64,000 bases of DNA, taken from contig NZ_CP095740.1 in assembly GCF_023078455.1 (NCBI RefSeq), positions 856,001 to 920,000 of the forward strand, written 5' to 3'. Each line of letters begins with the position of its first letter. Position 1 is the first letter of the stretch. The translations under genes were made by a program, and so were the position numbers. Under the pieces are notes generated by a model. It was not told the DNA's origin, did not search any database, and saw only the letters and a list, made by a program, of their open reading frames with translations. This document shows, in pieces, positions 11,073 to 61,944 of the stretch. The DNA comes from Luteibacter aegosomatis (GTDB lineage: Bacteria; Pseudomonadota; Gammaproteobacteria; Xanthomonadales; Rhodanobacteraceae).

Positions 11073-11115
11073 TCGCACGTCTCCCCATGAATTCGCACCC
11101 TCAAGGTAAGCACCG

Positions 11116-12585: not shown

Positions 12586-12592
12586 GTCCCTG

Positions 12593-12670
12593 TTCGCCGA
12601 TGCGATCGGCTCCCACCCCTTCGGTAGCCACCTCGCTACCGAAGGGGTGGGAGCCGATCGTATCGGCGAA
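12593..12670. repeat. REP-like palindrome, copy 2
   Basis: The 35-bp arms at 12593-12627 and 12636-12670 differ at a single position that still allows a G-U pair in RNA. The sequence is nearly identical to copy 1. It begins 8 bp after the pyk stop codon and lies between two genes on the same strand. Confidence 0.95.
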
Positions 12671-12766
12671 ACCCGGGTGCGACATCGCACGACGGCGCGA
12701 ATTCACACGCACCGCATGCGGCCACGGCGTTAAACTGCACGCCCAGGTAAAGCCACCGAGGGCGTC

Positions 12767-13213: not shown

Positions 13214-13316
13214 TCGCGCCGCACAACGGCTTTTGCTCCAAGCTCCCCTATACTTCGCTTTTTTCGTCATCGCCCCGTTTCCTTCGGGGGCATACCACTA
13301 CTTCCACGGAGTTCGC

Positions 13317-42386: not shown

Positions 42387-42579
42387 CAAGACCTCGTCCG
42401 TCATGCTCATGGCTAAAACGCTGCGCCGCCGAAAAAGCACCGTATTCACGGCGTATACGGACGGGTACGAATACCGTCTAGGCGGATACCCACAGCGCGT
42501 AGGGCGTCAAGTGTAATATGTAGCGCCGTTTGCGAGGGGCGACGCTTGAACGGCCCATGAATCCTTGAGATTATTTCCA

Positions 42580-43758
42580 GTGAAAAGAAATACTTACGCA
42601 AAGAATGCCCCCAAGGAGCACGGTCTCGGCACGCGTGCCATTCATGCGGGCCAGTCTCCCGACCCGTCGACCGGCGCCATCATGACGCCGATCTACGCGA
42701 CGTCAACGTACGTACAGAAAAGTCCTGGAAAGCATTCCGGCTTCGAGTACTCGCGCACCCAGAATCCGACCCGGATGGCTTACGAGGCCTGCGTGGCCTC
42801 GTTGGAAGGTGGCGTGCAGGGCTTTGCCTTCGCCTCCGGCCTGGCCGCCGCTTCCACGGTACTGGAGCTACTGGATGCCGGTAGCCACGTCATCGCCATG
42901 AACGACCTCTACGGCGGCACCTATCGTCTGTTCGAGCGCGTTAGGCGGCGGACGGCGGCCCTGGAGTTCGACTTCATCGATCTCAACGATCCGGCGGCGC
43001 TCAAGGCCGCGCTCAAGCCCAACACACGCATGATCTGGGCCGAGACGCCCACCAATCCCATGCTCCAGCTGGTGGACCTTGCCAAGGTGGCCGCGTTCGC
43101 GAAGAAGCATGGCCTGATCCTGGTCGTGGACAACACGTTCTGCTCGCCGATGCTGCAGCGCCCGATCGAATTTGGCGCCGACCTCGTGCTCCACTCGGCC
43201 ACCAAATACCTCAACGGGCATTCCGACATCGTCGGTGGCATCGTCGTCGCCGCCAACGCCGAGCTTGCCGAGCAGATGGCGTTCCTGCAGAACTCGATCG
43301 GGGCGGTCGCCGGCCCGTTCGATGCCTTCCTGGCGATGCGAGGTCTGAAGACCCTGCATCTGCGGATGCGTCAGCACTGCGAGAGCGCCCTGGCCCTCGC
43401 TACCTGGCTGGAGAAGCACAAGGCCGTGGAGCGGGTGATCTACCCCGGCCTGCGCAGCCACGCCCAGCATGCGTTGGCACGCAAACAGATGAACGGCTTC
43501 GGCGGCATCATTTCGGTGGAGATCAAGGGCGGAAAGGCCCGTGCGCGCCGGGTCCTCGAGCGCTGCGAGCTTTTCGCGCTGGCCGAATCCCTGGGAGGTG
43601 TGGAGAGCCTGATCGAGCATCCGGGCATCATGACGCACGCCTCCATTCCGGCCGCCACGCGAAAGAAGCTAGGGATTTCCGATGGGTTGATTCGTCTTTC
43701 GGTGGGCGTGGAAGATCTCGCCGACCTCCGCGACGAACTCGAGTCCGTCCTGGCATGA
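42580..43758 (+). CDS. metB: Cystathionine gamma-synthase/gamma-lyase (Cys/Met metabolism PLP enzyme)
   Basis: The roughly 392-residue fold-type I PLP enzyme has GLGTRAIHAGQSPDPSTGA, YSRTQNPTR, FASGLAAASTVLELL, the PLP Asp in VVDNTFCSPMLQRP and the Schiff-base Lys in HSATKYLNGHSD. Synthase (forward transsulfuration) and lyase (reverse) activities cannot be separated by eye. I place the start at GTG 42580; TTG 42565 in the same frame is possible and no ATG fits. Its stop overlaps the ATG of wzm. In Xanthomonas the orthologous metB borders the variable O-antigen cluster, as here. Confidence 0.93.
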   Translation: MKRNTYAKNAPKEHGLGTRAIHAGQSPDPSTGAIMTPIYATSTYVQKSPGKHSGFEYSRTQNPTRMAYEACVASLEGGVQGFAFASGLAAASTVLELLDAGSHVIAMNDLYGGTYRLFERVRRRTAALEFDFIDLNDPAALKAALKPNTRMIWAETPTNPMLQLVDLAKVAAFAKKHGLILVVDNTFCSPMLQRPIEFGADLVLHSATKYLNGHSDIVGGIVVAANAELAEQMAFLQNSIGAVAGPFDAFLAMRGLKTLHLRMRQHCESALALATWLEKHKAVERVIYPGLRSHAQHALARKQMNGFGGIISVEIKGGKARARRVLERCELFALAESLGGVESLIEHPGIMTHASIPAATRKKLGISDGLIRLSVGVEDLADLRDELESVLA

Positions 43759-44600
43759 CCGGAACCCAGCTCAAGTCGGCCGCGCTTCGTGTTCCCATGC
43801 ATCCGGCCGCTCCCTACGTGTCGCTCGCGCGTCATGCGCGGCTGATCTGGGAGCTCTGCCGTCGCGACGTCTCTGGCCGTTACCGCGGGTCTATGGGAGG
43901 CATGTTCTGGGCCTTCCTCAATCCGCTGCTGATGCTGGCGATCTACTCGTTCGTCTTCGGCTATATCTTCAAGTCGCGCTGGACATCCGCCGAGACGGGG
44001 CAGGTCAACTTCGCGATCATCCTCTTCATCGGCCTGATCATCAGCAATTTCTTCTCCGAATGCCTGAACCGGGCGCCGGTGTTGATCACGTCCAATCCGA
44101 ACTACGTGAAGAAGGTGATCTTTCCGCTCGAAACGCTTTCGTGGGTGACGGTGGGAACGGGGCTGTTTCACGCGTTTGTCAGCACCATCGTGCTGGTCGT
44201 GGCACTCGTGGCGACGGGAACCACGGTGGCTCCCGCGGCATTGCTCTTTCCATTGCTCCTGCTGATCTTCCTGCCCATGGTGGCGGGAGTGACCTGGCTC
44301 TTTTCGGCGCTGGGCGTGTACTTCCGTGACACGCAGCAGATCATGATGGTGCTGACCACCTCTCTGGTGTTCCTCTCTCCCATCTTCTATCCGCGTACGA
44401 GCTTGCCGGAACAGTATCGCTGGTTGCAGTCGTTCAGTCCGCTGACGTACGTGGTCGAGACCGCGCGTGGCCTGATCCTGTGGAACCGCCTGCCCGCGGT
44501 CGACGACACCGTCGCCTATCTGGTCGCGTCCCTGCTGGTGTCCTGGCTCGGTTGGCTGGTTTTCAATGCCACGCGAAAAGGTTTTGCCGATGTCATCTGA
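43755..44600 (+). CDS. wzm: O-antigen/polysaccharide ABC transporter permease
   Basis: The 281-residue ABC-2-type permease exports lipid-linked O-antigen across the inner membrane. The cytoplasmic N-terminus LIWELCRRDVSGRYRGS is followed by six hydrophobic segments, with FWAFLNPLLMLAIYSFVFG as TM1 and the family segment VYFRDTQQIM between later helices. The ATG overlaps the metB stop (ATGA), and the gene overlaps wzt by 11 bp. Confidence 0.95.
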   Translation: MTGTQLKSAALRVPMHPAAPYVSLARHARLIWELCRRDVSGRYRGSMGGMFWAFLNPLLMLAIYSFVFGYIFKSRWTSAETGQVNFAIILFIGLIISNFFSECLNRAPVLITSNPNYVKKVIFPLETLSWVTVGTGLFHAFVSTIVLVVALVATGTTVAPAALLFPLLLLIFLPMVAGVTWLFSALGVYFRDTQQIMMVLTTSLVFLSPIFYPRTSLPEQYRWLQSFSPLTYVVETARGLILWNRLPAVDDTVAYLVASLLVSWLGWLVFNATRKGFADVI

Positions 44601-45939
44601 CGAACTGGTCATCGACGTTCGCGGGGTCAGCAAGCGCTACGAGATCTACGCCAAGCCCTCGGACCGGTTCAAGCAAATGGTCGCGTCCGGCGTGCGCCGG
44701 CTGACGCGTGGTCCCGAGGTGCGCTATTTCCAGGAATTCTGGGCATTGCATGGCGTGTCGCTACACGTGAACCGCGGCGAGTGCGTGGCGTTGATAGGAC
44801 GCAACGGTTCCGGCAAATCGACGCTGCTGCAGATCATCGCCGGTACCGTATCGCCCACCGAAGGAGCGGCCACGGTGGACGGGCGGGTGGCTGCGCTGCT
44901 CGAACTCGGCTCGGGCTTCAATCCCGAGTTCACCGGGTTGGAGAACGTCTACCTCAATGCATCGTTGCTGGGACTTTCGCGCGAGGATGTCGACGCGCGC
45001 CTCGACGATATCCTGGCATTCGCCGATATCGGCGACTTCGTCCATCAACCCGTCAAGACGTATTCCAGCGGCATGACCGTTCGTCTGGCCTTCGCCGTGC
45101 AGGCGCAGATCGATCCCGACGTGCTCATCGTCGACGAGGCGCTAGCGGTGGGCGACGCCCGTTTCCAGGCCAAGTGCTTCGCCAGGCTAAAGGCCCTTCG
45201 CGAACGTGGCACGTCGATCCTACTGGTGACGCACTCGACCGAGCAGGTGGTAACGCACTGTGACAGGGCGATCCTGATCGACGGCGGGCACAAACTCGAT
45301 GACGGCGAGCCGCGTCCCGTCGTCAATCGCTATCTCGACCTGTTGTACGGGCGTAAGCGCATCGAAGCCGCACCGAAGACGGGCGAGCATGCGGGCGACG
45401 CGACGGTCAACGCCCAGCTCATGGATTTCGATCCGGCATTCGGCGAACGCCACGAGCCGATGTTCAACGAGCGCCCCGCCTACAATCCCTATGAGCACCG
45501 TTGGGGGGACGGCCGCGCGGAACTGATGGATTTCGCGATCTTCAAGGGCGACGAAGCCTTTCCACCGGTGTTCCGCAGCGGCGGCGAGTTGTCGCTTTAC
45601 GTGCGCTATCGATTCCACGCGGACATCACGCGACCGATCCTGGGCATCACGCTGAAGACCAAGGAAGGCGTGACCGTCTACGGTACGAATACGGAAATGG
45701 CCGCGATGGAGGGGGGCTTTCCCTCCGGTCGTCCGGACGAATCGGGCGTCATGCTGTGCCAGTTCGCGTTGAAGTGCGCCCCCGGCGATTATTTCCTTTC
45801 GGTCGGCATCGCCAGCCGTGACGGAAGCGGCGAAGCCGTGCCGCACGATCGTCGCTACGACGCCATCCATCTCTGTGTCGAACCGGACTCGCCCTTCATC
45901 GGCATCGCCGACCTGGGTGCCAGGATGCAATTTCTATGA
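44590..45939 (+). CDS. wzt: O-antigen ABC transporter ATP-binding protein with C-terminal carbohydrate-binding domain
   Basis: The 449-residue protein powers Wzm. The ATPase domain (1-250) has Walker [17 protein letters not shown], signature [12 protein letters not shown], and Walker [14 protein letters not shown], with the H-loop VTHSTEQV. Residues about 290-449 form the Wzt C-terminal beta-sandwich ([20 protein letters not shown] onward, including [15 protein letters not shown]), which in E. coli O9a recognises the finished, capped chain. Such an extension implies that the polysaccharide carries a non-reducing-end modification, consistent with the methyltransferase/kinase-like fusion encoded next. 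Confidence 0.95.
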
Positions 45940-48900
45940 AACCTTCTCTCGACGCGACGAAACGCCTGGGTGCCTATCGCTACGACGAGGCGTCGCTTTG
46001 CTGGTTCCGCCAGGACGAAGTGCACGACTGGGCTTACTCCGACGGTGACGCCGTGGAGGAAAATCTCTTCCGGCTCATCGCCTCGTGCAGCGATCGCTCA
46101 GTGTTGTCGGCCGAGCTGGCCGCCAAGATCATCGATTGGCCGACGCGCTATTACTTCAGTTCGCGACGCGCGAACCTGTTGCGCCCGCTGGAGGACATGC
46201 TTCGCGGTGACGTGCTGGAGATCGGTGCCGGTTGCGGTGCCATTACTCGGTACCTCGGCGAGACAGCGCGTTCGGTGGTGGCGATCGAGCCCTCCGCTCG
46301 TAGGGCGCGTGTCGCTGCGAAGCGATGCGAAGACCTGCCTGGCGTCGACGTGGTGGTCGACAACCTCGAAGCATTCGAGGGGAAGGGCGAATTCGACGTC
46401 GTGACGCTGATCGGCGTGCTCGAGTATGCCGAGCGTTTCGCCAAGCGACCGGATGCGGCCACGCATTGGTTGCAGTGCGCCCGTCGTTTGGTCAAGCCTG
46501 GCGGCGTACTGCTGGTGGCTATCGAGAACCAGCTGGGTCTGAAATATTTTGCGGGAGCGCCCGAAGATCACCTCGGACGGCCGATGCTCGGTTTGGCTGA
46601 TCTGTACGGCACGAGTGGTGCGCGCACGTACGGCAAGGCCACGCTGGAGAACATGTTGCTGGAAGCCGGTTTCGCCGAGGTGGCGTTTGCCTTGCCTTTC
46701 CCGGATTACAAACTGCCGGTGTCGGTATTGCTCTCCCGAGACGGCGACGCCATGCCGGGCTTCGACGGCGGCGTGGCGCTCGCGGCGGCGTCCGTGACCA
46801 AGGATCCGCAGCTGGCGCGCCCTCCGCTGTTCGCGCTCGATCGTGCGTGGCGAGTGGCCGCGCAGAACGGGCTTCTCTCCGACGTCAGCAATTCATTCCT
46901 CGCCGTCGCCCATGCACGCCCGGCCGATACTCCCTTCGGCGCTACCAACACGAACGTATCGGGTTATCACTTCTCCACCGAGCGCGCCCCCCGATTCGCC
47001 AAGGAGGCAGTGTTCGAGCATGGCAGTGGTGGAAGCTGGGTCCGTCGGCGCTTCCTGGTCGATGCGGAGCGCAAGAGCGGTCAGTTCGAATGCCGTCCCA
47101 ATGACGAGGCCTATGTCCACGGCCGGGCCGTTACCGACGAGCTGTACGAGATCCTTTTACGGGACGGCTGGCGGATTGAGGACGTCGGCGAGTGGATGCG
47201 CCGCTGGCTCGATGCCGTGGCCATGCATCTGGGCCTCGACGTCAATGCGCTGCAGCAGTCGTCGTACAGCGCGGAGATGGCTCTGCCGGGTGACGCTATC
47301 GACCTCGTGCCGCACAACCTCATCCAGGACGTCCACGGCCATCCGCGATTCATCGATCTGGAATGGCGGTCGGAGCAGTCGATTCCCCTTGGCTATCTGG
47401 CGTTTCGCGGATTGCTCGAGGTGGTGTCGGGCTGCGTGTCGGTGGCGCGGCCTTACGACGAACGGCATGCGAAAGTAAGCGAGTTCGTCGCTGACGCGAT
47501 GCGACAGGGTGGCCGCGAACTCCTGTTGCTAGACACCGACATCGAACGGTATCTGAAGATGGAACGCGAGTTCCAGTCGCAGGTGTCGGGCCGACCGTCC
47601 GACCTTGCCCCCGAAGCCTTCGCCGCATCGATGATGCCGGTATCGGTGGCAAGTCAGGGCGAGGGTTCGCTATCGCCGTCCAGGGCGTCTTCGGCGGAGT
47701 TGGCGAACCACCTGTCCAGCCTGCAGCAGCAGCACGATGCGTTGCTCGAAGAGCATAGCCGGGTGGCACATTGGGGCCGGTCCGTCGATGGTGAACTCCA
47801 TGAGCTTCGCGGCCGGTACGCGGCGCTGGTGAGTGAGCACGATGGTGTCGCCAAGTGGGCTACCGACCTGGACGATCAGCTCAAGGCTGCCAAGGGTCGG
47901 CTGGATGCCCTGGTTCAGCTCGCGGAAGACGATGGAGACGTGCAGGCCGCGATGCTCGGCGCTTACCTTCTTGAGCTCACCAACCTGCGCCGGGATCATG
48001 CCCTGGCCGTGCGCCGTGCAGAGCGCCTGGGCGCCGATCTTGCCGCCCTCGAACGCCGGGCGGCATCGGATTCGGATGCGAGCGGGATCCTGCGCGATCG
48101 GATCGGCTCCGCCGAAGCGAGAATTCGCGAGCTGTCGGAAAAGAACGAAAGCCTACTCAACGACCTGGATCGCATTCGGAAGCGCGACCACGGACTGGAG
48201 AAAGAGCTGTCCCGGCTGCGTCGTACCATGGGCATGGATGCGGAACGACCTTCAGGGCAAGCAGGCGATGCTTCTACCGTCGACGCGATGGATCCTTCGG
48301 TGTTGCGCAGGCTCGAGGCGCAATTGGTCGCCGCGAATGCCGCATCCGCGGCGAGCCGTGTTCGTGAAGAGCAGATCTCCGCCGATCTGACGAAGGCGCT
48401 TTCCCGCCTTGGAGACCTGGAGTGGGAGCTTTCAACGACTCGCAGGGATTTCGAGCAGGTCGTCCGCTCCCTCTCGTGGCGTCTGACCCGGCCGCTGCGA
48501 TTTGGCATGCGCGTGGTGCGTAGGGACTGGAACGGTGTCGTGGCGTCGCTACGCGGGCGACCGTGGATACGTAGTCGCGCACTGAATTTCATAAGGGAGC
48601 CCGCAAAACGCTTTCTCATGCAGCGTTCTCAGCGCATCGCGCCGCTTCCCGACCTCATCGGCGAATCCGGGGTCGATCCGCGCTCGTTGCTGGATGGCGT
48701 CTCGTTTCCGGTGGTCGAGCATCCGGTCGTCAGTATCATCATTCCGGCATACGGCCGCCTCGACCACACCGCGGCGTGCGTTCGGTCGATCTTTCTCCAT
48801 CTGCCGACGGTTCCGGTCGAAGTGATCGTCGCCGAAGACGCATCCGGCGACCCTGACATCGGTGCCCTCGCCGACGTACCCGGACTTCGTTATTACGAAA

Positions 48901-50630
48901 ACCCGGTCAACCTCGGCTTCCTGCGATCCTGCAATCAAGCGGCGGCACGTGCTCGCGGGCACTACGTCTACTTCCTGAACAACGATACGGAAGTCACTGC
49001 TGGTTGGCTGGACGCACTGGTGGATACAGCTCGTCGCTGGCCTGATTGCGGCATGGTGGGCTCCAAGCTGGTTTATCCGGACGGGCGCCAACAGGAAGCA
49101 GGCGGTATCGTCTGGAAGGATGCCAGCGCCTGGAACTACGGTCGTCTCGACGATCCGTCGCGCAGCATCTACAACTACACGCGCGAGACCGATTACATAT
49201 CGGGTGCGTCGATCATGCTTGAGCGGAGTCTCTGGGAGTCATTGGGTGGCTTCGACGAGTTGTACCTACCCGCTTACTGCGAAGACACCGACCTTGCCTT
49301 CAAGGTGCGAGCCGCAGGTCTCAAAGTAGTCTTCGAGCCCAAGTCAGTCGTCGTTCATTACGAAGGGGTTTCCCACGGCACAGACACGTCCGCAGGGATC
49401 AAAGCTTATCAGGTCGAAAACCTGAAAAAGCTTCGCGAGCGATGGCGTGACACTTTGGAAGGTGAGCATCTTGCCAATGCCGATCGCCCGTTTCTCGCGC
49501 GTGATCGAAGCCAATTGAAGAAGGTTGTACTTGTCATCGATCACTATATTCCTCAGCCTGATAGGGATGCTGGTTCGCGTGCCATCTATCAGCTGCTGAT
49601 GCTGCTCGTCAAGCAAGGGTATTCGGTCAAGTTCTGGCCGGAGAATCTCTGGCACGATGAGTTATATGCCACTCCGTTGCAGGACGCTGGTGTGGAGGTT
49701 ATGTACGGCGGAGAATATGTGGGCGACTTCGACCGATGGATCAGGGAGAACGGAAGATCTCTCCATGCCGTGATCTTCAGTCGGCCACACGTTAGTATGA
49801 ATTTTATCGATAGCGTTGAGGAATATAGCCAAGCGCGACGCTTGTACTATGGACACGACATTCATCACCAGCGCCTTGCCGAAGAATTGAAAGTACTCCC
49901 GTCGGATGAAACGAAGGCGGAGATGGAGCGATTCCAGCAAATGGAAGAGGCGTTATGGACGCGGATGGATGCGGTTTATTATCCCTCGAACCTCGAGACC
50001 GAGTTCGTTAAGCGATGGGCGGCCGATCGCGGTAGCCAGGTGAACGCCCTGACGATCCCGCTATACGCTTATGAAGACGTCCCGGCGGATGTGGAAAAAA
50101 ATCTTCCCGAGCGGGAAGGGATCCTCTTCGTAGCTGGTTTTGGACATCCGCCAAATGTCGATGGAGCGGTTTGGTTCGTTCAGAGCGTACTTCCGCATGT
50201 CCGGCGAGCACATCCAGGGGTAAAGGTGACTCTAGCTGGGTCCAATCCGTCGCCAGAGGTCATGGCGCTGGCTAGCGAAGACGTTTTCGTTACCGGATTC
50301 CTCAGCGACGACGTGTTGACCTCCCTGTATCGGTCTGCTCGCGTGGCGATAGCTCCGCTAAGGTTTGGCGGGGGGATGAAGGGCAAGGTGCTTGAAGCAA
50401 TGCGTCATGGCTTGCCTCTGGTCACCACGTCTACTGGAATGCAGGGCCTCGCGAAGGCTGCGGACTTCGTATTCGCAAATGACGAGGCCATTGACTTTGC
50501 TTCCAGCGTTCTTCGGCTTCTCGATAGCGACGAGGAGTGGGTGCTACGCTCAAAGCGTTCCCAAGAGTTTTTGCTAAGGACATTTTCGGAGAAGGCTCTC
50601 TTTAATGTCATAAAGGAAGGGATGGAGTGA
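45936..50630 (+). CDS. Giant multidomain O-antigen protein: methyltransferase, kinase-like, coiled coil, two glycosyltransferases
   Basis: The 1564-residue protein has, in order: a SAM methyltransferase (motif [16 protein letters not shown] at about 93); a region with kinase-like catalytic motifs (DLVPHN at 456-461 and FIDLEW at 472-477); long coiled coils (about 586-768 and 785-860); a linker ending [11 protein letters not shown]; a GT2 domain (about 929-1180, [11 protein letters not shown], acid motif FLNNDTEV, and [16 protein letters not shown]); and a GT4-like domain (about 1195-1564, [34 protein letters not shown]). Known WbdD proteins combine methyltransferase, kinase and coiled-coil ruler to cap and measure O-antigen; here those parts are joined to glycosyltransferases. 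The kinase assignment is tentative. GC content drops in the last 1.3 kb. Start overlaps wzt by 4 bp. Confidence 0.88.
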
Positions 50631-51169: not shown

Positions 51170-52225
51170 ATGGGGCGCTCAATTTCGGTTGCGGAAGGTT
51201 TGGCCAAGCGAGAGGACAACTTCCTTCTGCTTCGGGTAGTGGCAGCCGTGCTGGTGATTTACGGGCATAGTTTCTACCTCGCGCCTCATGGTTCTGCGAA
51301 AGAGGTCTTTACCGCATCTGGATGGGGTATCTATAGCGGCGCCATCGCCGTGGATATGTTTTTCGTGATAAGCGGCTTCATGGTGGCGGGAAGCTTTATT
51401 CGGCAGCCCGACTTATGGGAATTCATGAAGGCGCGACTACTTCGGATTCTCCCCGGGTATCTGGCCTGCCTGTTAATCATCAGCATGGTCATGGGGGCTC
51501 TGTTTACATCGCTTCCGTTGAAAGAATATTTCCGCGATCCGGACGTTTGGGCATATGTCAGGAAAAACCTGCATTTTTCGTCGGACATGCGGTTTTCCCT
51601 TCCCGGGGTCTTCGCAACTCATCCCCACGATGCGGTAAACGGCAGTCTATGGACCTTGCCTGCGGAATTCAGGATGTATGTGTTTGTCGCCGTGCTCGGT
51701 TCCTTAGGAATACTCGCGCGGCGATGGTTGGTTGCCTCGGTTATCCTGGGGTTGCTTATCACGGGCATATGCTGCCCGTGGAATCTGCCCTTGCATCCTG
51801 ACTGGATTCGTCTAGGAGGCTATTTCTCCCTGGGCATTCTTATCTTTACCTTCAAGGATGAGATAAGAATTAGCTCGGCAGGGCTCCTGTCCGCAATTTT
51901 CGCCGTGTATCTCTGCCGTGGGCTGGATGCCTACGGTTTCGTCTTTGCGATCGCACTTTGTTATTTCTGTTTTTGGTTTGCTTACATTCCCCGCCTGCCT
52001 CGTATGGATGCTTGGGGTGATCCCTCGTACGCCATTTACCTGTGGGGTTGGCCAATACAGCAGATGTTTGTGCACTTCTTCCCTGAGCTGCCGTCGTTGG
52101 CTAATTTTGCTTTGTCTTCGTGTACGGCGATTATTTTTGGATACCTGTCCTGGTACTTGATCGAAAAGCCCTGCCTTCGTCTGAAGCACGTCTTTTCGCG
52201 CAAATCTCCAGTCGTGGCCAGATAG
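51170..52225 (+). CDS. Acyltransferase-3 family membrane protein (surface glycan O-acyltransferase)
   Basis: The 351-residue integral membrane protein has the acyltransferase-3 pattern: NFLLLRVVAAVLVIYGHSF with conserved Arg/His, IAVDMFFVISGFMVAGSF, ARLLRILPGYLACLL, and SLWTLPAEFRMYVFVAVLG. It lacks the SGNH domain seen in the two acyltransferases near 20-26 kb. Its place in the O-antigen locus suggests it O-acetylates the polysaccharide or a precursor. It is in a relatively AT-rich stretch, a usual sign of laterally exchanged O-antigen genes. Confidence 0.92.
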   Translation: MGRSISVAEGLAKREDNFLLLRVVAAVLVIYGHSFYLAPHGSAKEVFTASGWGIYSGAIAVDMFFVISGFMVAGSFIRQPDLWEFMKARLLRILPGYLACLLIISMVMGALFTSLPLKEYFRDPDVWAYVRKNLHFSSDMRFSLPGVFATHPHDAVNGSLWTLPAEFRMYVFVAVLGSLGILARRWLVASVILGLLITGICCPWNLPLHPDWIRLGGYFSLGILIFTFKDEIRISSAGLLSAIFAVYLCRGLDAYGFVFAIALCYFCFWFAYIPRLPRMDAWGDPSYAIYLWGWPIQQMFVHFFPELPSLANFALSSCTAIIFGYLSWYLIEKPCLRLKHVFSRKSPVVAR

Positions 52226-52544
52226 CCGAAGTCGCCTCAGCGATAGCCCTAATGTGTCCCATGTCTTCTCGAGTTCGACTCCAGTGAAATTATCGGGCGG
52301 GTCCGGTCGAATGAATCAGGGATCAGCAAGCCTCTAATGGCCATCAAGAACATAGTTCCAGTGACGCGATATTTTGGCATGTCTCGTCGATGGTGGTTCG
52401 CGGTGCTGCCTGCCTGGATACTCGTGCGCCCCGCTCCCGGACAAAACGGGGAGGCTTAGCTCTTTACTCCATAATTGATCCGCTTTAGTGCGAGACCAAG
52501 TCCCTACGTTAGCGTAGCCCGGTTATCTAGAAATGGTCGCGTTC
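52226..52544. other. Intergenic region between convergent O-antigen and arabinose blocks
   Basis: This 319-bp stretch lies between convergent stop codons. I find no convincing coding frame, repeat or strong hairpin. Base composition is close to that of the preceding acyltransferase gene. Confidence 0.6.
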
Positions 52545-54080
52545 TTAGCGGTGTTGCGGATTCTTATATACGTTCATGCAATACAGCGCCGTATGGTAAG
52601 CGCAGCGCTGTGAAGCGACTTGGTCGTCCGCGTTGTCCCTCGCCCAGACGTCTATGACAGGAAGAGATGTATTGCCGAAGCGACCGAGTTCTTCATCACC
52701 CGTTCGCTGGACGCTTTTGGGGAACAGGAGTCTCAATGGCGATTTGGCTGCCCTTTCAAAATTTCCCGTCTGCGCGAGGCCGCAAAGGTCATTCGTCCAA
52801 ACGGAACTTCCGGCCAAGAATGAGACCATTCCTATTTCGCATACGCGTATATAGCTGGGGCCAAAGCCAGGAAGATCGAATATGCCGTTGCCCTTGTGCA
52901 ACGAAGCGAGGTTGGCGTAGGCAACGCCCCTTGACCCTTCGGAGGGGCCTTTGCTGAGATTCCAGGGCAGGTTATCGCTAGGAAAGGCAAAAGCCGTGCA
53001 CCATGCAAGAAACATTACGGCGGAAGTGACCGGAACGAACAAATATCTCCGGTGACGCCGCGCCAACCACACGCTGCCGATAGCAATGAGCAGTACGCAG
53101 CAAGTCAGTATGTTCTCGTAGTACCAAAGAAAGCCCGCCGGCAGGCGATAGAGTACAAGGCTCGCAACGACAATGGGAAACAAACCGCGCCGTCCCAGTA
53201 TTCTAAAGGCGAATATGGCGGATGCAACGAGAACGATGCCGCCGACTATGTTCGGTAGCGTCGCCCGATAATTCATGCCGGTTAGTACGGCACCCATTCG
53301 CCCCGGCAACGAAGTAAGAAAGCGCTCGTCCGTAAATTGGTGACTTTGGCCGGAGAGCAATTTCGCCCAAACCGTCGTCGGAATGAAATAGACTCGAGTT
53401 GCAAGGCAAAGTCCGACGTAAACGATCGCCACCACGGCGAAACCTAAGCTCGCCCCGCGTATCCACGACGTTATGGGGCGCTGGCTGATAGCGGTCAGGG
53501 CAAAGACGCAACCGAGAATTCCCAGATCCGGGCGAGCGAGGATAGCTACCATCGCAAACGCCCCCATGGCGAACGCATGACGACGGCACACCGCTTCGGC
53601 AAGCGCAGCGAGCGCTATCAAGACGATGCTTCCTTCCATTTCGAAGAAGCTGTGCGTCGCCAGGCCTATGCCCCAGTATAGGATCAGCAAAACCCATGCC
53701 CTGGCTGCGGCCCCGGACGACCTGGAGAACAACCAGTAAACGCCGGCCACGGCAATCTGGAGAGACGCAGCGACAGCCAATACGACGGCCGCCCCCTGCA
53801 GCGTACGAAGCGGCACCCACAGCTTTGCGAGCGCAGCGGCGATGCTCAGGAAGAACAGTCTTAGCGGCGACGAAGAAAGGAGCGCGTGGGAGTCGGCAGG
53901 CAGGTAGTAGTTGGCGTCGAAGTGCTCTGCAACGTTCGCGGCATTGTGCAAGTAGATGAATGTGTCGTCGTAGAACGAGGTCCTGCCCGCGACGTATCGA
54001 TAGTACACATAGCCCAGTACGGCGTTTACCGCGACGAACGCCAGTAGATTGATGGCGAAAGAGATTTTTTGGCGGTTCAT
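52545..54080 (-). CDS. Polytopic GT-C-type glycosyltransferase, candidate arabinofuranosyltransferase
   Basis: The 511-residue protein has about 10-12 membrane segments. After TM1 there is an acidic pair in FYDDTFIYLHNAANVAEHF (Asp38, Asp39), the place and form of the catalytic acids of lipid-phosphate-sugar-dependent GT-C enzymes; mycobacterial arabinofuranosyltransferases such as AftB have a similar DDA motif. Further features are HSFFEMEGSIVLIALAALAE and ILARPDLGILG. A soluble C-terminal part of about 100 residues follows the last helix. It is the last gene of an operon that appears to make polyprenyl-phosphoryl-arabinose, so arabinose transfer in the periplasm is the best guess. Another sugar, or pilin as acceptor, is possible. 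Confidence 0.8.
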   Translation of the reverse strand: MNRQKISFAINLLAFVAVNAVLGYVYYRYVAGRTSFYDDTFIYLHNAANVAEHFDANYYLPADSHALLSSSPLRLFFLSIAAALAKLWVPLRTLQGAAVVLAVAASLQIAVAGVYWLFSRSSGAAARAWVLLILYWGIGLATHSFFEMEGSIVLIALAALAEAVCRRHAFAMGAFAMVAILARPDLGILGCVFALTAISQRPITSWIRGASLGFAVVAIVYVGLCLATRVYFIPTTVWAKLLSGQSHQFTDERFLTSLPGRMGAVLTGMNYRATLPNIVGGIVLVASAIFAFRILGRRGLFPIVVASLVLYRLPAGFLWYYENILTCCVLLIAIGSVWLARRHRRYLFVPVTSAVMFLAWCTAFAFPSDNLPWNLSKGPSEGSRGVAYANLASLHKGNGIFDLPGFGPSYIRVCEIGMVSFLAGSSVWTNDLCGLAQTGNFERAAKSPLRLLFPKSVQRTGDEELGRFGNTSLPVIDVWARDNADDQVASQRCAYHTALYCMNVYKNPQHR

Positions 54081-54091
54081 GAGGCGGAATC

Positions 54092-54517
54092 CTAAGGCTG
54101 GATAAGAGGCCTATGGCCTTCCGTGTTGAAAACGAAGCGACGATCGAGGAAGTACTTCACGGTATACCCGATGGTCAGGCCTACCGCCGCGCCGACGTAA
54201 CGGTACGCATCGCCGAGAACATGATCGAATCCCCATTCGATCAGCCAGAAGACCAGTGTAGTGACGAGCCCCATCGCCGTGTACATGGTTGCGGTGCGGG
54301 CCTCATGTGCAGTGCTGTCGCTTTTATGCCGAAAGATCCAGTTTCGATCGAGCAGGTACTTTACGCACAGCCCCACGCCCGTGCCGACGACCATGGCCGC
54401 GAGCAAGGCGAACTGTCCGCGATACGCTCTCGAAGCGAGCGCCTGGGCGCCGATATTCGCAACCATGGAAACAATGCAGAAGCTCGCGTAGAGAGCGATG
54501 AATCGAAGCTGTTTCAC
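54092..54517 (-). CDS. GtrA-family membrane protein
   Basis: The 141-residue protein has four hydrophobic segments in the GtrA pattern: RFIALYASFCIVSMVANIGA, LLAAMVVGTGVGLCVKYLLD and the family end FLDRRFVFN. GtrA proteins are thought to assist translocation of polyprenyl-phosphate sugars to the periplasmic side; a GtrA-like protein (Rv3789) accompanies the arabinan pathway of mycobacteria. The start is a GTG that overlaps the stop of the SDR gene (GTGA). It sits between the donor-synthesis genes and the GT-C gene, fitting a flippase or scaffold role. Confidence 0.9.
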   Translation of the reverse strand: MKQLRFIALYASFCIVSMVANIGAQALASRAYRGQFALLAAMVVGTGVGLCVKYLLDRNWIFRHKSDSTAHEARTATMYTAMGLVTTLVFWLIEWGFDHVLGDAYRYVGAAVGLTIGYTVKYFLDRRFVFNTEGHRPLIQP

Positions 54518-55248
54518 AGCGACAGGCGCCTGAAGACCGAGGTGGGAATGGTTCGGATCACCAGCATGATCCCTGCCCAGAACCAAGGCAGGTAAGCGAC
54601 AGGCCGGCCCTTTTCTATGGCCTTCACGATCCCCTTTGCGACCTGTTCGGGCTTGGCCCACAAGGGGCCCTTCTTGAAGTCCTTCGTCATGGGGCTGTCG
54701 ACGAAGCCGGGTTTGATCGTCGTCACGCGGACGCCGTACTTCGCAAGCCGCTGGTCGAGCCCGCTCATGAATGCGTTTACCGCCGCTTTTGCCGAGCCGT
54801 ACAAGTAGTTACTCGATCTTCCGCGATCACCTGCCACCGAAGATATGACGGCCAGGCTTCCTGATCTTGCGCTTTGCATGCGATTTGCTATGACGGTGAG
54901 AAGCGCAATGGTCGATGTCGCGTTGGTATTGAATTCTCTAATGGCTACGTCTGCGTCAGCCTCGCATCTTGCTTGGTCAGGCAACGTGCCGTGCGCAAGG
55001 AGCACGACGTCCCATCCTCCCAGGATGTTCAAGGCGTGGGCGACCACCGCCTCATGACGCGCCAATTCGTTCACATCGAGCTGTTCGTGAGTGACGCTGG
55101 CTCCACGAGCAGAGAGATCTGCAGCGATGACTTCTAGGCGTTCCTGATTGCGTGCGATGAGGTGAAGCTTCGCGCCACGCCGGGCGTAGATGCGCGCGGT
55201 GGCCTCGGCAATGGCGGATGTCGCACCGATGATTAGAATTTTCTGCAT
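54514..55248 (-). CDS. SDR oxidoreductase, decaprenylphosphoryl-2-keto-ribose reductase (DprE2)-like
   Basis: The 244-residue protein is a short-chain dehydrogenase with cofactor motif ILIIGATSAIAEATARIYARR, AHGTLPDQ, catalytic Ser in SVAGDRGRSSN and Tyr/Lys in YLYGSAKAAVNAF. The beginning GATSAIAEA and the C-terminal hydrophobic tail match DprE2, which reduces the 2-keto intermediate to polyprenyl-phosphoryl-D-arabinofuranose. The ATG at 55248 has GGAG five bases upstream; a GTG at 55254 overlapping the upstream stop is the alternative. It is coupled to the DprE1-like gene before it. Confidence 0.9.
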   Translation of the reverse strand: MQKILIIGATSAIAEATARIYARRGAKLHLIARNQERLEVIAADLSARGASVTHEQLDVNELARHEAVVAHALNILGGWDVVLLAHGTLPDQARCEADADVAIREFNTNATSTIALLTVIANRMQSARSGSLAVISSVAGDRGRSSNYLYGSAKAAVNAFMSGLDQRLAKYGVRVTTIKPGFVDSPMTKDFKKGPLWAKPEQVAKGIVKAIEKGRPVAYLPWFWAGIMLVIRTIPTSVFRRLSL

Positions 55249-55250
55249 GG

Positions 55251-56552
55251 TCACTCCGAAACCCTACGCCAGAAGCTTGAAGATATCCCAGGGTCGATGA
55301 ATGCACCGAAGGCCTTCCAATGGGGGAAATAAGTACGAAAGTGTGGCCCCGACATTCGCGCATCCTTGGCAGGGTAAACGGCACCGCCCGCGTCGGCGAC
55401 GACGTCATCGAGACGCCTAAGCAGGTCGAATGTCGTCTTTCCCTCGTTCGGGAAATCCAGCGCCAGCGTCGTGCCCGGACGGGGGAAAGAAAGCATGCCT
55501 CGCGACGGGGACTGTCCAAACTGTTTCAGTACCGCGAGGAACGACCCCGTGCCCGACCGCGAAATCTCCTTGATGAGTTCGGCCATGCCGTCGAAGGCGA
55601 ATTGTGGCGGAATCACGCATTGATATTGGAGAAATCCACGAGGACCGTATGCCCGGTTCCAGTTGACTACGCTGTCCAGCGGGTAGAAGAACGGCTCGTA
55701 GTGGACGGTCGAGTGCTCGACGCGCTTTCGCTGGCGATGGTAGTACAGGTGGTTGAATGCCTTCAGGCTAAGCGAATTGATCAGTGAGAAGGGTGGGGTC
55801 AGTGGAACCGACAGGCGCCTGCCGGATGGCAGCGGCCGCATGTCGGGATTGGCCGGAGCATGATTCGCGCGGCTGAACAGTCCTCGTCCCAATGCCTTGC
55901 CTGAAGCGACGCAGTCGATCCAGGATACGGTGTATTCGTAATCCGAGTCGGATGCATCTGAAATAGAGAAGAACTCTTCAAGACTTTCAAATCGATGCGT
56001 TTCCGATGCCATCCAGGGGCCCGCGATTCGCCGCAGTTGGATCCGTGCCCATGTGACGAGCCCGGTAAGCCCCAGGCCACCGATGGTGGCCGCGAACCAA
56101 TCCGCGTTCTCCTCCGGAGTGCACAGAAGACGTGAGCCATCGGTACGCAGCAATTCAAAAGCGATAATGTGGTGACCAAACGTGCCTGCTCGATGGTGGT
56201 TCTTTCCATGTACATCGTTGGCTATGGCTCCGCCGACAGTAACGAAGCGGGTTCCTGGCGTGACCGGCAAAAACCATCCTTGCGGAACGACCAGGTCCAA
56301 GATATCCGCAAATTGCACGCCGGTTTCGCAAGTGACGACGCCGGTAGACGGATCGAACGCGATGAAACGATCCAGATTCTTCGTGGACAGGAGTATGCCG
56401 CCATCGTTCAGGCAACTGTCCCCATAGCTTCGGGCATTGCCCAAAGGCAGCACCGGGAGCTGAGCGGGCGGTAACGGCGCGAGCCTGTCTGAGAGCGGCA
56501 CGACACGTTCCGAGGTCACCGGGTAGCGTCCCCATGATCGGCCGGCTGCCAT
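55251..56552 (-). CDS. FAD-dependent oxidoreductase, decaprenylphosphoryl-ribose 2'-oxidase (DprE1)-like
   Basis: The 433-residue VAO-type flavoprotein has the FAD segments LPLGNARSYGDSCLN and TPGTRFVTVGGAIANDVHGK followed by NHHRAGTFGHH, which match DprE1 closely. DprE1 oxidises C2 of polyprenyl-phosphoryl-ribose. The C-terminal part SFPRPGTTLALDF aligns with the Mycobacterium tuberculosis region holding Cys387, the residue that reacts with benzothiazinones; here that position is Ala364. The active-site Lys corresponding to Lys418 is kept in VYPAKDAR (Lys396). Its ATG overlaps the UbiA stop (ATGA). Confidence 0.92.
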   Translation of the reverse strand: MAAGRSWGRYPVTSERVVPLSDRLAPLPPAQLPVLPLGNARSYGDSCLNDGGILLSTKNLDRFIAFDPSTGVVTCETGVQFADILDLVVPQGWFLPVTPGTRFVTVGGAIANDVHGKNHHRAGTFGHHIIAFELLRTDGSRLLCTPEENADWFAATIGGLGLTGLVTWARIQLRRIAGPWMASETHRFESLEEFFSISDASDSDYEYTVSWIDCVASGKALGRGLFSRANHAPANPDMRPLPSGRRLSVPLTPPFSLINSLSLKAFNHLYYHRQRKRVEHSTVHYEPFFYPLDSVVNWNRAYGPRGFLQYQCVIPPQFAFDGMAELIKEISRSGTGSFLAVLKQFGQSPSRGMLSFPRPGTTLALDFPNEGKTTFDLLRRLDDVVADAGGAVYPAKDARMSGPHFRTYFPHWKAFGAFIDPGISSSFWRRVSE

Positions 56553-57973
56553 CAGATGGACAATGCGATAATGATGGCGGCCACGACGCCAAGGATGCGG
56601 CTCGTGTTGTCCATCACAGCGAACACGACGGGGTCATCGTGCATCACGCCACGATGCGCAATGGCCCAAGTTCGGCTGATCCAGTAGAGGAGCAAAGGGC
56701 AAAGCATCCACAGATAGTGCGGGTGTCGATACAGCATGCTGCTTGCCGTGCTTTCGATATAGAGCGCCAGCACGAGCACGGCGAGATACCCGCTGGAACT
56801 GCCCATCGACTGAATCAAAGGAATGTCTTCGACGTCATAGCCTCGTCCGCTCGCGGTGACTTCTCCGCGCGACTGGAGGCCGAGCAGCTCGGTGTAGCGC
56901 TTCACCATCGCCAGGCTCAGGAAAATAAACATGGAGAAGGCGAGGAGCCAAAAGGATGGCGCCGTCTGTGTTGCCGAAGCCCCAGCAAGAATGCGGCTGG
57001 TGTAAAGCATCGCCAGCACCACCACGTCCAACATCATGATGCGTTTCAATTTGAAGGAGTAAGCGGTCGTCAGGATGTAATAACAAAGCAGTATGGCGGT
57101 GAATTGGGTGGATACCACGAATGCAAGGGCGAAGCCTGCGAAGAGAAGCGCAAAGGCCAGAACGGGTCCTGCGACGACCGGAAGGGTTCCCGCTGCAAAC
57201 GGCCTGTTGCGTTTGCGATGATGTTTTCTGTCGGACGGCAAATCCAGGAGATCGTTGGTCAGGTAGACGCTTGATGCGCAGAGCCCGAACGCAAGGAAGC
57301 CAAGCACTGCATTGGTGAGTGCTCCAACGTCGAAAATCCGGTGCGCGGCGATCAGGGGCAGGAACACCAGCAGATTCTTGATCCACTGATGAATTCGAAT
57401 GGCTTTCGCCCAAGCCTTCATCCCTCCACCCGGTACGCCGAAGCGGCGTTCCACGCGGGCAACCTTTGAGGCAGCCGATGAAAGGGTCGTGCCCCTCTCG
57501 ACGACGTAGGCAAAGCGAGCATGTTTCCAGACGGCGATGTCTACCGGTGCGTTGCCGATATAGTCGAATCCGTGTTGTCCAAATCGCTCGACCAAGGCTT
57601 CCGCTTTCCGGCTGCCCGACAGGTTGACGTGTCCATCGCTCGCCAGAACGTCATCAAAGATGGCTACATGTTGCGCGACCGGTGCGGTGAGGCGCATGTC
57701 CGACGCCGTACAAAGAATAAGGGGCCTGTGCGTTCGCTCGTTGCGGAGCCATGCCAAAAGTTCTTCGTTATACGGCAGAGAGCTGGCGTCAAGACTCACA
57801 CGTATCGCTATCTGCTTCTTGAGATAGGCTTTCCCCCGCATGAGCCATATCAACATGCTGAAGATCATGAGAGGGTGTTGGGAAATGAGCGCGAGCGCTG
57901 ACTCCACCAGCAAATCAGAGCGGATCAGGGTGCCATCCAGGTCGACACATAGGGGGGTGCTTTCTTGTGCCAT
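56552..57973 (-). CDS. HAD phosphatase-UbiA prenyltransferase fusion (DPPR synthase-like)
   Basis: The 473-residue protein joins an N-terminal HAD-type domain (about 1-190; CVDLDGTLIRSD, CTASDMRLT, GNAPVDIAVWKHA) to a UbiA membrane domain (about 195-473) with NDLLDLPSDRKHHRKRNRP, the Asp-rich prenyl-diphosphate motif, and YILTTAYSFKLKR. Mycobacterial Rv3806c (UbiA) makes decaprenyl-phosphoryl-5-phosphoribose from PRPP, and a separate phosphatase removes the 5-phosphate. A HAD domain in cis could supply that activity. It is the first gene of the five-gene arabinose operon; the ATG at 57973 is clear. Confidence 0.9.
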   Translation of the reverse strand: MAQESTPLCVDLDGTLIRSDLLVESALALISQHPLMIFSMLIWLMRGKAYLKKQIAIRVSLDASSLPYNEELLAWLRNERTHRPLILCTASDMRLTAPVAQHVAIFDDVLASDGHVNLSGSRKAEALVERFGQHGFDYIGNAPVDIAVWKHARFAYVVERGTTLSSAASKVARVERRFGVPGGGMKAWAKAIRIHQWIKNLLVFLPLIAAHRIFDVGALTNAVLGFLAFGLCASSVYLTNDLLDLPSDRKHHRKRNRPFAAGTLPVVAGPVLAFALLFAGFALAFVVSTQFTAILLCYYILTTAYSFKLKRIMMLDVVVLAMLYTSRILAGASATQTAPSFWLLAFSMFIFLSLAMVKRYTELLGLQSRGEVTASGRGYDVEDIPLIQSMGSSSGYLAVLVLALYIESTASSMLYRHPHYLWMLCPLLLYWISRTWAIAHRGVMHDDPVVFAVMDNTSRILGVVAAIIIALSI

Positions 57974-58087
57974 TTCTTCCGTTTTTCGCCGGTGTCATGA
58001 GTAGATGTTGTAGCACTTCGCAGAGATATCGACCTGACAGAGGAGAGTATTTCCCAGGTGAGCCCCCAACTGCCGAGGTTCAATAGT

Positions 58088-59029
58088 TCAGCCGAGCGCC
58101 GATTCCAGCTCCGGAAGGATCTTGAAGAGGTCCCCCACCAGGCCGATGTCGGCGATCTCGAAGATCGGCGCCTCGCCGTCCTTGTTGATGGCGACGATCG
58201 TGCCGGCATCCTTGATGCCCGTCAGGTGCTGGATGGCGCCCGAGATGCCCACGGCGATGTAGAGCTCCGGCGCGATAATCTTGCCGGTCTGGCCGACTTG
58301 CATCTCATTGGGAACGTAACCGGCGTCCACCGCCGCGCGCGACGCGCCCACGGCGGCGCCGATCTTGTCGGCGAACTTGTAGACGATCTCGAAGTTTTCT
58401 TTCGAGCCGACGCCACGCCCACCGGACACCACCTTCGGCGCGCCCTGCAGGTCGGGGCGGTCGCTCTTGCCCTGCTGCAGGTTCACGAACCGGGTATGAG
58501 AGGGCAGGGCGACGTCGAGCGACAGGGCCTCGATCGACGCGGAACCGGTCGAGGCGGCGGCCGGCCAGGAAGCCGTGCGAATCGTGGCCACGACCGTCAC
58601 GGAGGTATCGGCCTCCACGGTCACGATGGCGTTGCCGGCATAAATGGGACGCTTGAACGTGTGCGAGCCTTCCACGGCCATCACGTCGCTCACCTGCGAC
58701 ACCCCCAGCAGGGCGGCGACGCGGGGGGCCACGTCCTTGCCGAAGGTGGTCGACGGGGCGAATACGTGCGAGTAGCCGGCGGCCGCCTTGGCGATCTGCG
58801 GGGCGAGCACCGCCGCCAGGGCGTGAGCGTTTTCGGGACGGCTCACGGTGAGCACCTTGCCCACGCCATCGATCTTCGCCGCGTTGGCGGCGACGGCGTC
58901 GGGCGCGTCGGACAGCACGATGACGTCGATGGATTCGGGCTTGACGGCAGCGGCCGCGCTCACGGCGCGCGCGGTCGAGGCATTGAGCTTGCCGTCCAGG
59001 TGTTCGGCGATAACGAGGATCTTGGTCAT
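58088..59029 (-). CDS. etfA: Electron transfer flavoprotein alpha subunit
   Basis: The 313-residue protein pairs with EtfB to carry electrons from acyl-CoA and other dehydrogenases to ETF-ubiquinone oxidoreductase. The N-terminus [14 protein letters not shown] and the C-terminal FAD domain [34 protein letters not shown] and [17 protein letters not shown] are typical. It starts 22 bp after etfB. In Xanthomonas etfA is one border of the O-antigen cluster and it lies next to the arabinose operon here. Confidence 0.98.
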
Positions 59030-60138: not shown

Positions 60139-61944
60139 ATGCAAAACGTGGTCGGATCTGCCGCTCGTCCGGGCGGCTCGCGGAGCATGTCGTCCTGGGC
60201 CAAGGGCGCATCGGGCTGTGTCGTCCTGATTGCGCTGTCCTGGGTACTGGACCGCTATTCCCTTCGTCTCGATTGGGGGGCTTATCTCTTTTCCCGGGGA
60301 TTCTTCGCTGGCATCCTGCCCTTGCTGGCGGTCTACGGCATCTTGCTGGCCATCACGAATCGCCCTTGGCTAGCCTCGCTCCTGCAAGCGGCTCTCCTGG
60401 TCGCCCTATTCGTGGCGAACATGAAAAAGGTCGAGTACCTGCACTCGACCGTCATGCCGACCGATTATTTCTTCGTCAAGGGGCTCGATACGTCGAGCAT
60501 CACTTTGCTGGGGCATTACGTCGATGTGCCAGTGGTATCCGCGTCGGCTGTCGTACTCCTTGGTGTCGCGGTGCTCGGGTGGCGTTATGAAGCGCCCATT
60601 TTCAAGAATCACAGGCTCGCTCGCGCTACGTCGCTCATCGCGAGCATAGCGCTCGGATGGTGGCTGCTTTCGGCCAGCAGGTTTGTCGAGCGGGTGTACG
60701 ACGAAGATGCACTCGGCATCACCTACCAATCCATGGCGAGCCAGTTGCATGCGGGATTGCTTAGTTCCCTTGTCTATTGGAACCTTGCAAATCAAAAGGC
60801 GCTAGACGTTCAGCCCGATCCGGTGGCGGCAGGCGAGCTCCTGGCCTTGGAGAAGGCGACGTTTCCTCCCGGCGTCGCGGAAGGATCAGGCGCCGCGACG
60901 GCACCCGATATCGTCGTGGTCCAGAGCGAATCCTTTTTCGACCCCGCCCTCATGCAGGGTGTCGACACGGACGAACTCCTGCCCCATTTGCATCGCGCCC
61001 AGAGGGAAACGGGCGTGCGGGACATGACCGTACCCACCTTCGGCGGTGGCACCCTTCGATCGGAATTCGAGTTCCTCACCGGCATTCCGCTGGAAGCCTA
61101 TCCGGATTTGCAATTTCCTTACCTCCAGATATCCAAACCGAGGATCGAAGGCATCGTCAGTGCATTGAACGACGCGGGATATTCGACGACTGCCATTCAT
61201 CCCAACAGCGGGCAATTCTGGAACCGGCGAGCCACCTTCCAGGCCATGGGATTTCAGAAGTTCATCGCGAGGAAGGCGTTTCCTTCTTCCGCCTATGGCG
61301 ATGGCCTATACCTTTCCGATCGGTCGATGACGGACCAGATCATCGACTCTCTCGAGAAATCGCATTCGCCCAGCTTTATCTTCGCCATCAGCATCGAGGC
61401 GCACGGGCCATATCGGCACATGCCCGTGCGAAACGAAGCGGAGCGGGCGGCCCGATCCGTTCCCGCGGCATGGCCCGATAAGGCCGCCGACGAATTCCGA
61501 ACTTACACGTACCACATCAGGCATGCGGACGAAGAGCTTGGACGCCTTTGGACTTACCTGAAACAGCGAAGGCGGCCTTACTTACTGGTCTTTTATGGCG
61601 ATCACCTGCCGGGCCTCGAGTTCGTTTACCAGGCGGGCGGTTTCAGGAATGGGCTCTCTCCTTACGAGCAGAACGTTCCCTGGGTCATCCTGAGCAGCGA
61701 GCCGCCAGTCGATTCCATGTCGCCGCGTCACATTTACGCATGGATGCTGGCGGACGAGATCTTCCGCCAGGCAGGACTTCGGGAGCCCAGCTATTTCCGT
61801 GTCGTCGGTAACGCGGGGCGGCTGCTCGAGCAAGGGGGCGGGGCGCCACGGCAAGAGATACGCCCAGGGCTCCAGTCGGTGGCGCGCATGCGTCTCGCGG
61901 GTCGGTTCGATGCGTTCTATGGAAGTCAAGCGCATGAGGACTGA
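60139..61944 (+). CDS. LTA-synthase/sulfatase-family membrane phosphotransferase
   Basis: The 601-residue protein has five membrane segments in the first 200 residues and a periplasmic alkaline-phosphatase-fold domain (about 255-560). Catalytic features are APDIVVVQSESFFD (metal Glu), TFGGGTLRSEFEFLTG (nucleophilic Thr), and VFYGDHLPG (metal Asp/His). Gram-positive LtaS moves phosphoglycerol; Gram-negative relatives (OpgB, EptA-like enzymes) decorate periplasmic glucans, LPS or O-antigen. Being 1 kb from the polysaccharide locus, it may add phosphoglycerol or a similar group to it. Substrate is unknown. Confidence 0.92.
   Translation: MQNVVGSAARPGGSRSMSSWAKGASGCVVLIALSWVLDRYSLRLDWGAYLFSRGFFAGILPLLAVYGILLAITNRPWLASLLQAALLVALFVANMKKVEYLHSTVMPTDYFFVKGLDTSSITLLGHYVDVPVVSASAVVLLGVAVLGWRYEAPIFKNHRLARATSLIASIALGWWLLSASRFVERVYDEDALGITYQSMASQLHAGLLSSLVYWNLANQKALDVQPDPVAAGELLALEKATFPPGVAEGSGAATAPDIVVVQSESFFDPALMQGVDTDELLPHLHRAQRETGVRDMTVPTFGGGTLRSEFEFLTGIPLEAYPDLQFPYLQISKPRIEGIVSALNDAGYSTTAIHPNSGQFWNRRATFQAMGFQKFIARKAFPSSAYGDGLYLSDRSMTDQIIDSLEKSHSPSFIFAISIEAHGPYRHMPVRNEAERAARSVPAAWPDKAADEFRTYTYHIRHADEELGRLWTYLKQRRRPYLLVFYGDHLPGLEFVYQAGGFRNGLSPYEQNVPWVILSSEPPVDSMSPRHIYAWMLADEIFRQAGLREPSYFRVVGNAGRLLEQGGGAPRQEIRPGLQSVARMRLAGRFDAFYGSQAHED

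Follow-up and report, generated by a model that had tools for sequence, protein, structure and literature searches.

In Citrobacter youngae O1 and O2, a fused HAD-UbiA lipid-phosphoribose synthase, a flippase and a GT-C glycosyltransferase are encoded next to Wzm/Wzt O-antigen genes, with an epimerase step described for O2 (PMC11127046). That report, published in 2024, connects the fused phosphatase-UbiA route, together with DprE1/DprE2, to arabinofuranose (Araf) and mentions more elaborate systems in Xanthomonas. A block of HAD-UbiA, DprE1 and DprE2 genes at the etfA end of Xanthomonas and Stenotrophomonas lipopolysaccharide (LPS) loci was in print in 2007, without an arabinose reading (PMC2238763). 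The mycobacterial arabinan pathway (Rv3806c, Rv3807c, DprE1, DprE2, Rv3789, AftA-D, EmbA-C) and the TfpW system of Pseudomonas paraeruginosa, in which Gram-negative D-Araf donor genes are combined with a GT-C transferase, complete the set of comparisons. Here we describe a five-gene operon of the gammaproteobacterium Luteibacter aegosomatis. It probably encodes a three-component lipid-linked pentofuranose side-chain system that arabinosylates the O-antigen, with a GtrA flippase and an AftB-like GT-C enzyme, as judged from gene content, motifs, conserved gene order, the locus and GT-C fold similarity. The operon lies in a stretch of 64,000 nucleotides (the window; NZ_CP095740.1, positions 856,001 to 920,000) of a genome that forms a single 4.76-Mb contig. 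All coordinates are those of the window unless a relative locus is named.

The operon and its predicted donor enzymes

Five minus-strand open reading frames (ORFs) occupy positions 52545-57973:

56552..57973, minus strand: predicted HAD phosphatase fused to a UbiA-type polyprenyl-phosphate phosphoribosyltransferase, 473 amino acids (aa); NF006088, PF01040, alignment to structure 8j8j, active-site motifs
55251..56552, minus strand: DprE1-like flavin adenine dinucleotide (FAD) oxidase, 433 aa; DprE1 chains in PDB, NF053785 below its cut-off
54514..55254, minus strand: DprE2-like short-chain dehydrogenase (SDR), 246 aa; NF005489 over and NF053786 below cut-off, YGSAK motif
54092..54517, minus strand: GtrA-family small membrane protein, probable flippase, 141 aa; NF037976 over cut-off, PF04138
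52545..54080, minus strand: putative GT-C glycosyltransferase, rare family with a distant resemblance to AftB, 511 aa; profile, Foldseek, conserved place behind GtrA

An earlier note on this DNA, made from the sequence alone, had described this gene order on the minus strand, with start/stop overlaps and a gap of 11 bp before the last gene, and all of this was found as claimed. The first four genes overlap by 1, 4 and 4 bases in turn; 11 bases precede the GT-C gene. The start codon of gtrA is a GTG that overlaps the stop of the DprE2-like gene, and its 141 aa are counted from there. A scan of positions 52200-58200 for sigma-70-like promoters returned no site (2.7 expected by chance), and terminators in the same interval did not exceed the chance number.

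The HAD-UbiA protein matched NCBIfam NF006088 with 659 bits (cut-off 351) over residues 3-471 and the UbiA family PF01040 with 79 bits; the HAD family PF12710 gave 23 bits, under its cut-off of 27. Among solved structures, the closest to the UbiA domain is the decaprenyl-phosphate phosphoribosyltransferase 8j8j (8e-25). The HAD motif DLDGT is found at residues 11-15, and the UbiA motifs NDLLDLPSD and KRYTE at residues 240-248 and 358-362. Their spacing is that of the conserved residues reported for Citrobacter ORF15, N247/D248/D251/D255 and R366/E369 (PMC11127046), and the protein carries the NDxxDxxxD and R/E signatures of a phosphoribose synthase.

The best model match of the DprE1-like protein was the DprE1 equivalog NF053785, at 367 bits under the cut-off of 500. 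In searches of solved structures, it retrieved DprE1 chains with E values of about 1e-71, followed at 1e-9 by cytokinin dehydrogenases as the next group, and its HGKN and AKDAR motifs are present. The SDR, in which YGSAK is found, exceeded the cut-off of NF005489 (331 bits, cut-off 267), with the DprE2 equivalog NF053786 as second-best match at 196 bits, under its cut-off of 250. The GtrA protein gave 155 bits with NF037976 (cut-off 50). At the sequence level, each donor enzyme matches a characterized relative, active-site motifs included. The roles that had been proposed for the operon, namely phosphoribosyl transfer to polyprenyl phosphate, dephosphorylation, 2-epimerization, GtrA and GT-C, are supported as predictions.

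The operon had also been called mycobacterial-type. This holds for the chemical route to polyprenyl-phosphoryl-arabinose, which is the same, but not for the phosphatase, because the HAD fusion is of the Citrobacter ORF15 type and mycobacterial Rv3807c is described as unrelated to HAD (PMC11127046). In addition to the fusion, the window differs from mycobacteria in having one GT-C protein instead of many, and an O-antigen locus instead of arabinogalactan. At the position of the M. smegmatis DprE1 cysteine that we take to be the equivalent of Cys387, the enzyme encoded at 55251-56552 has Ala. By sequence pattern, this site is Ala in 78 and Thr in 1 of the 79 relative loci in which it could be read, out of 101, with no Cys. 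The C387S change in DprE1 has been reported to cause benzothiazinone resistance (PMC6153800).

The GT-C protein and its possible relation to AftB

The 511-aa protein had no significant match in Pfam or NCBIfam, none in PDB as a single sequence, and none to the AftB model NF041481 (cut-off 1050 bits). Its motifs are DD at residues 38-39, RPD at 183-185, IPTT at 233-236 and WAK at 238-240. Database searches for relatives, each of which scored the best 7998 candidates, returned only P0002 (56%) and P0003 (31%) besides the protein itself, and no relative was found in viral contigs scanned with P0002. Two weak matches of 18-19 bits with internal stops, in genomes G441 and G765, were dropped as chance.

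The first structural model, from a profile of three sequences (A1), was poor, with a predicted local distance difference test (pLDDT) score of 50; Foldseek matched it to ALG9, AftA and ALG12, and AftB was not among the best 50 of its 212 matches. A better model, which drew on two bridging sequences, reached a pLDDT of 66 and a predicted template modeling score of 0.72. With it, Foldseek ranks 1 to 12 were all GT-C enzymes, AftB being first at 2.7e-4, which argues that the modeled protein belongs to the GT-C class. A profile that includes these bridging sequences, from the relative loci L094 and L126 (profile A3), had mycobacterial AftB as its sole significant match in PDB, with an E value of 1.7e-6. 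Profiles A1 and A2, which lack the bridges, found nothing, and neither bridging protein retrieved AftB on its own. When 149 membrane ORFs from 100 loci, grouped into 61 clusters, were compared by profile, only the L094/L126 cluster (84.7%) exceeded 15%, besides the GT-C protein of locus L114 described below. Other membrane proteins near the module were rejected as members of the same family (A3 versus A4, 0.6%; A3 versus A5, 12%).

The A3-AftB alignment pairs Arg183 of the RPD motif with residue 221 of deposited AftB. Asp38-Asp39 stand in the place of the AftB DD motif after the first transmembrane segment, matched by position only, and no counterpart of AftB Arg372 was established. AftB is reported to retain the beta anomer, and a double displacement has been proposed that involves D62 of the DD motif, R221 and R372, of which R221 is described as donor-contacting and essential (PMC12041299). 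Taken together, these data weakly suggest a rare family distantly related to AftB. Clustering with a non-arabinosyl family would have spoken against the arabinosyltransferase prediction, and the outcome was mildly favorable to it: the best relative is AftB, through a weak link that is lost without the bridges.

If the protein is distantly related to AftB, its reaction may be a retaining one and its product a beta-linked D-Araf. We give even chances to an inverting enzyme that adds alpha-D-Araf and resembles AftB through general GT-C ancestry. This fits the pentofuranose side chains described in PMC11127046, all but one of which are alpha; it also fits the tie between AftB and inverting GT-C enzymes in our VIA-align comparison and the failure of bridge-free profiles to detect AftB. 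Shared ancestry accounts less well for AftB being both the sole significant PDB sequence for A3 and the top Foldseek match, or for the lack of an AftB match with two control families, which are other membrane proteins, probably GT-C, encoded beside the same module.

The shared donor module and its cassettes

The earlier note called D-arabinofuranose rare in Gram-negative bacteria; the distribution of the donor genes contradicts this for the module. DprE1 matches with E values of 1e-20 or better were present in 65 of 197 genomes of the same family, this one included, 40 of them at 50% identity or more (this one counted) and 25 at 26-39%; within the genus, 7 of 19 genomes had a match, again counting this one. 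A scan of named genomes matched at least 591 stretches, at least 590 of which encode DprE1 relatives, and the 80 loci retained from the matches listed include Xanthomonas, Dyella, Rhodanobacter, Lysobacter, Stenotrophomonas, myxobacteria and Burkholderiales. With 40 of 197 family genomes and at least 590 relatives in named genomes, the donor module is widespread. DprE1 relatives of less than 60% identity are also encoded on plasmids (65 records, including 34 from Rhizobium), and a partial match to UbiA (30%) was seen in one phage record. Of the 25 distant DprE1 genes, the loci of four were examined (L151-L154); these have an adjoining DprE2-like gene (about 29-31%) but no HAD-UbiA match in the 15-19 kb covered for each, and possibly represent a different pathway with the same two-step epimerization. 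An X. cannabis LPS cluster has been described as encoding UbiA and three oxidoreductases (PMC12662623). The pathway had been described before, as had its occurrence in LPS loci of xanthomonads; the donor module is not rare, and it is not new. Among open-license papers, our searches turned up no description of the GT-C family of this operon, and none of an O-antigen locus that encodes an AftB-like enzyme.

We compared gene order in 101 relative loci, comprising 20 from the family, the 80 from named genomes and L145. All were chosen by a DprE1 match except L145, chosen by a GT-C match; some genomes are represented twice, and several loci end inside the block at contig ends. Script-made gene calls contained shadow ORFs and omissions (DprE1 itself was uncalled in some loci), and the order was therefore determined by tblastn, on the same strand and within 11 kb of DprE1. 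HAD-UbiA was found in 95 and DprE2 in 96 of the 101 loci, so that the association of the three genes is not due to chance. The blocks of Xanthomonas and Stenotrophomonas have the same place and order and are likewise convergent with wzm/wzt, their products being a prenyltransferase of 481 aa, an oxidoreductase of 433 aa and an SDR of 242 aa (PMC2238763).

What follows the donor genes varies. In 47 of the 101 loci, among them 29 of the 30 that also show etfA, the module is accompanied by an epimerase (314 aa), an FAD enzyme resembling amine oxidases (about 430 aa) and GtrA; the sizes are taken from L033-L132 and the Pfam identities were read from L036. In 39 loci, HAD-UbiA, DprE1 and DprE2 were the only ones found of the genes sought. 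The epimerase/FAD/GtrA set may modify the lipid-linked sugar further. The block of Xanthomonas strains BXO8 and 306 is reported to encode, in addition, an epimerase and GtrA together with a phytoene-desaturase-like enzyme and further membrane proteins (PMC2238763), whereas the window has just GtrA and a GT-C protein of a different family, and neither the extra epimerase nor the amine-oxidase-like enzyme.

These observations bear on an alternative in which the finished donor carries a pentofuranose other than Araf, or in which the SDR and the FAD enzyme of the operon act together on a different lipid-linked sugar. The frequency of the additional epimerase and FAD enzyme in relative loci points that way, as do the DprE1 and DprE2 equivalog cut-offs that were not reached. 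Nevertheless, we consider this rather unlikely, as the catalytic motifs of the donor enzymes are kept and the extra pair, when sought in the rest of the genome, yielded just an epimerase of 26% identity and nucleotide-binding stretches of about 45 residues, leaving the DprE1/DprE2 step alone.

The window-type GT-C was seen by tblastn in two relative loci, L114 and L145, and in none of the remaining 99; these two proteins are 27-29% identical to that of the window. L145, from another family of the same taxonomic order, has the exact five-gene order of the window directly beside etfA. In L114, a metagenome-assembled genome of Arenimonas, HAD-UbiA, DprE1 and DprE2 lie 5.7 kb beyond etfA; a GtrA-like stretch and the window-type GT-C come next, and the epimerase/FAD/GtrA set stands behind the latter (8569-14043 of that locus and beyond). 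Both cassettes thus share a single donor module in this genome, which looks like an intermediate stage of cassette exchange. Other loci (L033-L114) have at least three membrane protein families near the module, clusters 1, 2 and 3, which BLAST does not join and which carry PFWDQWD, DxSW or FRQTQTA motifs near the N terminus. Pfam assigned no family to seven such proteins (five from clusters 1-3). By length, helices and position, the proteins of these clusters are probably further unclassified GT-C families. Gene order across the 101 loci suggests a shared donor module with exchangeable GtrA and GT-C cassettes.

The O-antigen locus and the likely acceptor

The operon is located at the etfA end of a metB-etfA locus and is convergent with the genes from metB to the acyltransferase gene:

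42565..43758, plus strand: metB-type pyridoxal phosphate enzyme, probable cystathionine gamma-lyase, LPS-locus border (PF01053, 502 bits)
43755..44600, plus strand: Wzm, O-antigen ATP-binding cassette (ABC) transporter permease (PF01061)
44566..45939, plus strand: Wzt, ABC transporter ATPase with a C-terminal Wzt_C domain (PF00005, PF14524)
45936..50630, plus strand: 1564-aa methyltransferase, GT2 and GT1 fusion, predicted O-antigen assembly (PF08242, PF00535, PF13692)
51170..52225, plus strand: acyltransferase-3 family protein, possible O-antigen acylation (PF01757, 99 bits)
58088..59029, minus strand: etfA, other LPS-locus border (PF01012/PF00766)

The earlier note had placed the operon between O-antigen genes and etfA, and Pfam identified wzm/wzt, metB and etfA accordingly. 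The metB-etfA interval is known as the LPS locus of xanthomonads, with metB as a border gene (PMC2238763). A 173-aa ORF in the locus is without a family match. The GC content drops from 0.63 between metB and 49 kb to 0.56 between 49 and 58 kb, the value for the whole window being 0.63; for the Xanthomonas BXO8 LPS locus, 56.7% versus 63.7% has been reported (PMC2238763). Wzt with its Wzt_C domain is followed by a protein that starts in a methyltransferase domain (44566-50630), an arrangement that resembles the combination of chain terminator and Wzt known from Citrobacter and E. coli O9a. Beyond etfB, on the opposite strand, a sulfatase-fold protein resembling lipoteichoic acid synthase is encoded at 60139-61944; its match to NF053595 is weak and far under the cut-off.

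In the proposed mechanism, the UbiA domain would transfer 5-phosphoribose from phosphoribosyl pyrophosphate to undecaprenyl phosphate, and the fused HAD domain would remove the 5-phosphate. The DprE1/DprE2 pair would then oxidize and re-reduce C2, yielding undecaprenyl-phosphoryl-D-arabinofuranose; DprE1/DprE2 homologs are reported to accompany Araf-containing glycans (PMC11127046). GtrA would help the lipid-linked Araf across the inner membrane, for which GtrA in Shigella-type Gtr systems and the small mycobacterial exporter Rv3789 are precedents (PMC11127046), and transfer of D-Araf by the GT-C enzyme would take place in the periplasm. The O-polysaccharide that Wzm/Wzt of the same locus export is the most likely acceptor. 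In the ABC transporter pathway, the backbone is fully polymerized in the cell and then exported; the Citrobacter O1/O2 loci have Wzm and Wzt, and periplasmic addition after polymerization was shown for their Wzm/Wzt-dependent O-antigens (PMC11127046). As wzm and wzt are present here as well, the locus fits periplasmic side-chain addition. By that description, the Citrobacter systems differ in having a MATE flippase instead of GtrA, in lacking the DprE1/DprE2 pair (none in O1, one SDR epimerase in O2), and in their transferase ORF12 (CAZy GT136), a protein of 652 aa with a C-terminal sugar-binding domain.

The same donor pathway might instead serve a protein acceptor, type IV pilin for example, by analogy with the TfpW system. 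In P. paraeruginosa, the D-Araf genes PSPA7_6245-6251 are found on a genomic island away from the pilin cassette PSPA7_5159-5161, and it is the arabinosylation of pilin that they supply (PMC12369383). That system has a separate phosphatase, and its transferase gene is next to pilA. In contrast, the window GT-C is encoded behind the donor genes inside an LPS locus with wzm/wzt, and it stays with the donor genes in L114 and L145. Judged by the location of the GT-C gene, we regard a protein acceptor as quite improbable. A more specific version of O-antigen arabinosylation, in which the rare GT-C family and its own GtrA form a swappable cassette and the GT-C is a retaining AftB-type arabinofuranosyltransferase capping the O-antigen with beta-D-Araf, is put forward as a possibility that is less likely than not.

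The authors of the AftB study state that other structural examples of retaining GT-C chemistry are absent (PMC12041299). Should the GT-C protein prove to be AftB-like, this small environmental enzyme would offer a second handle on this chemistry and reveal a route by which Gram-negative glycans can acquire beta-linked Araf. More broadly, our comparison suggests that surface-sugar diversity at the etfA end is built from one conserved donor module with swappable GtrA and GT-C cassettes behind it.

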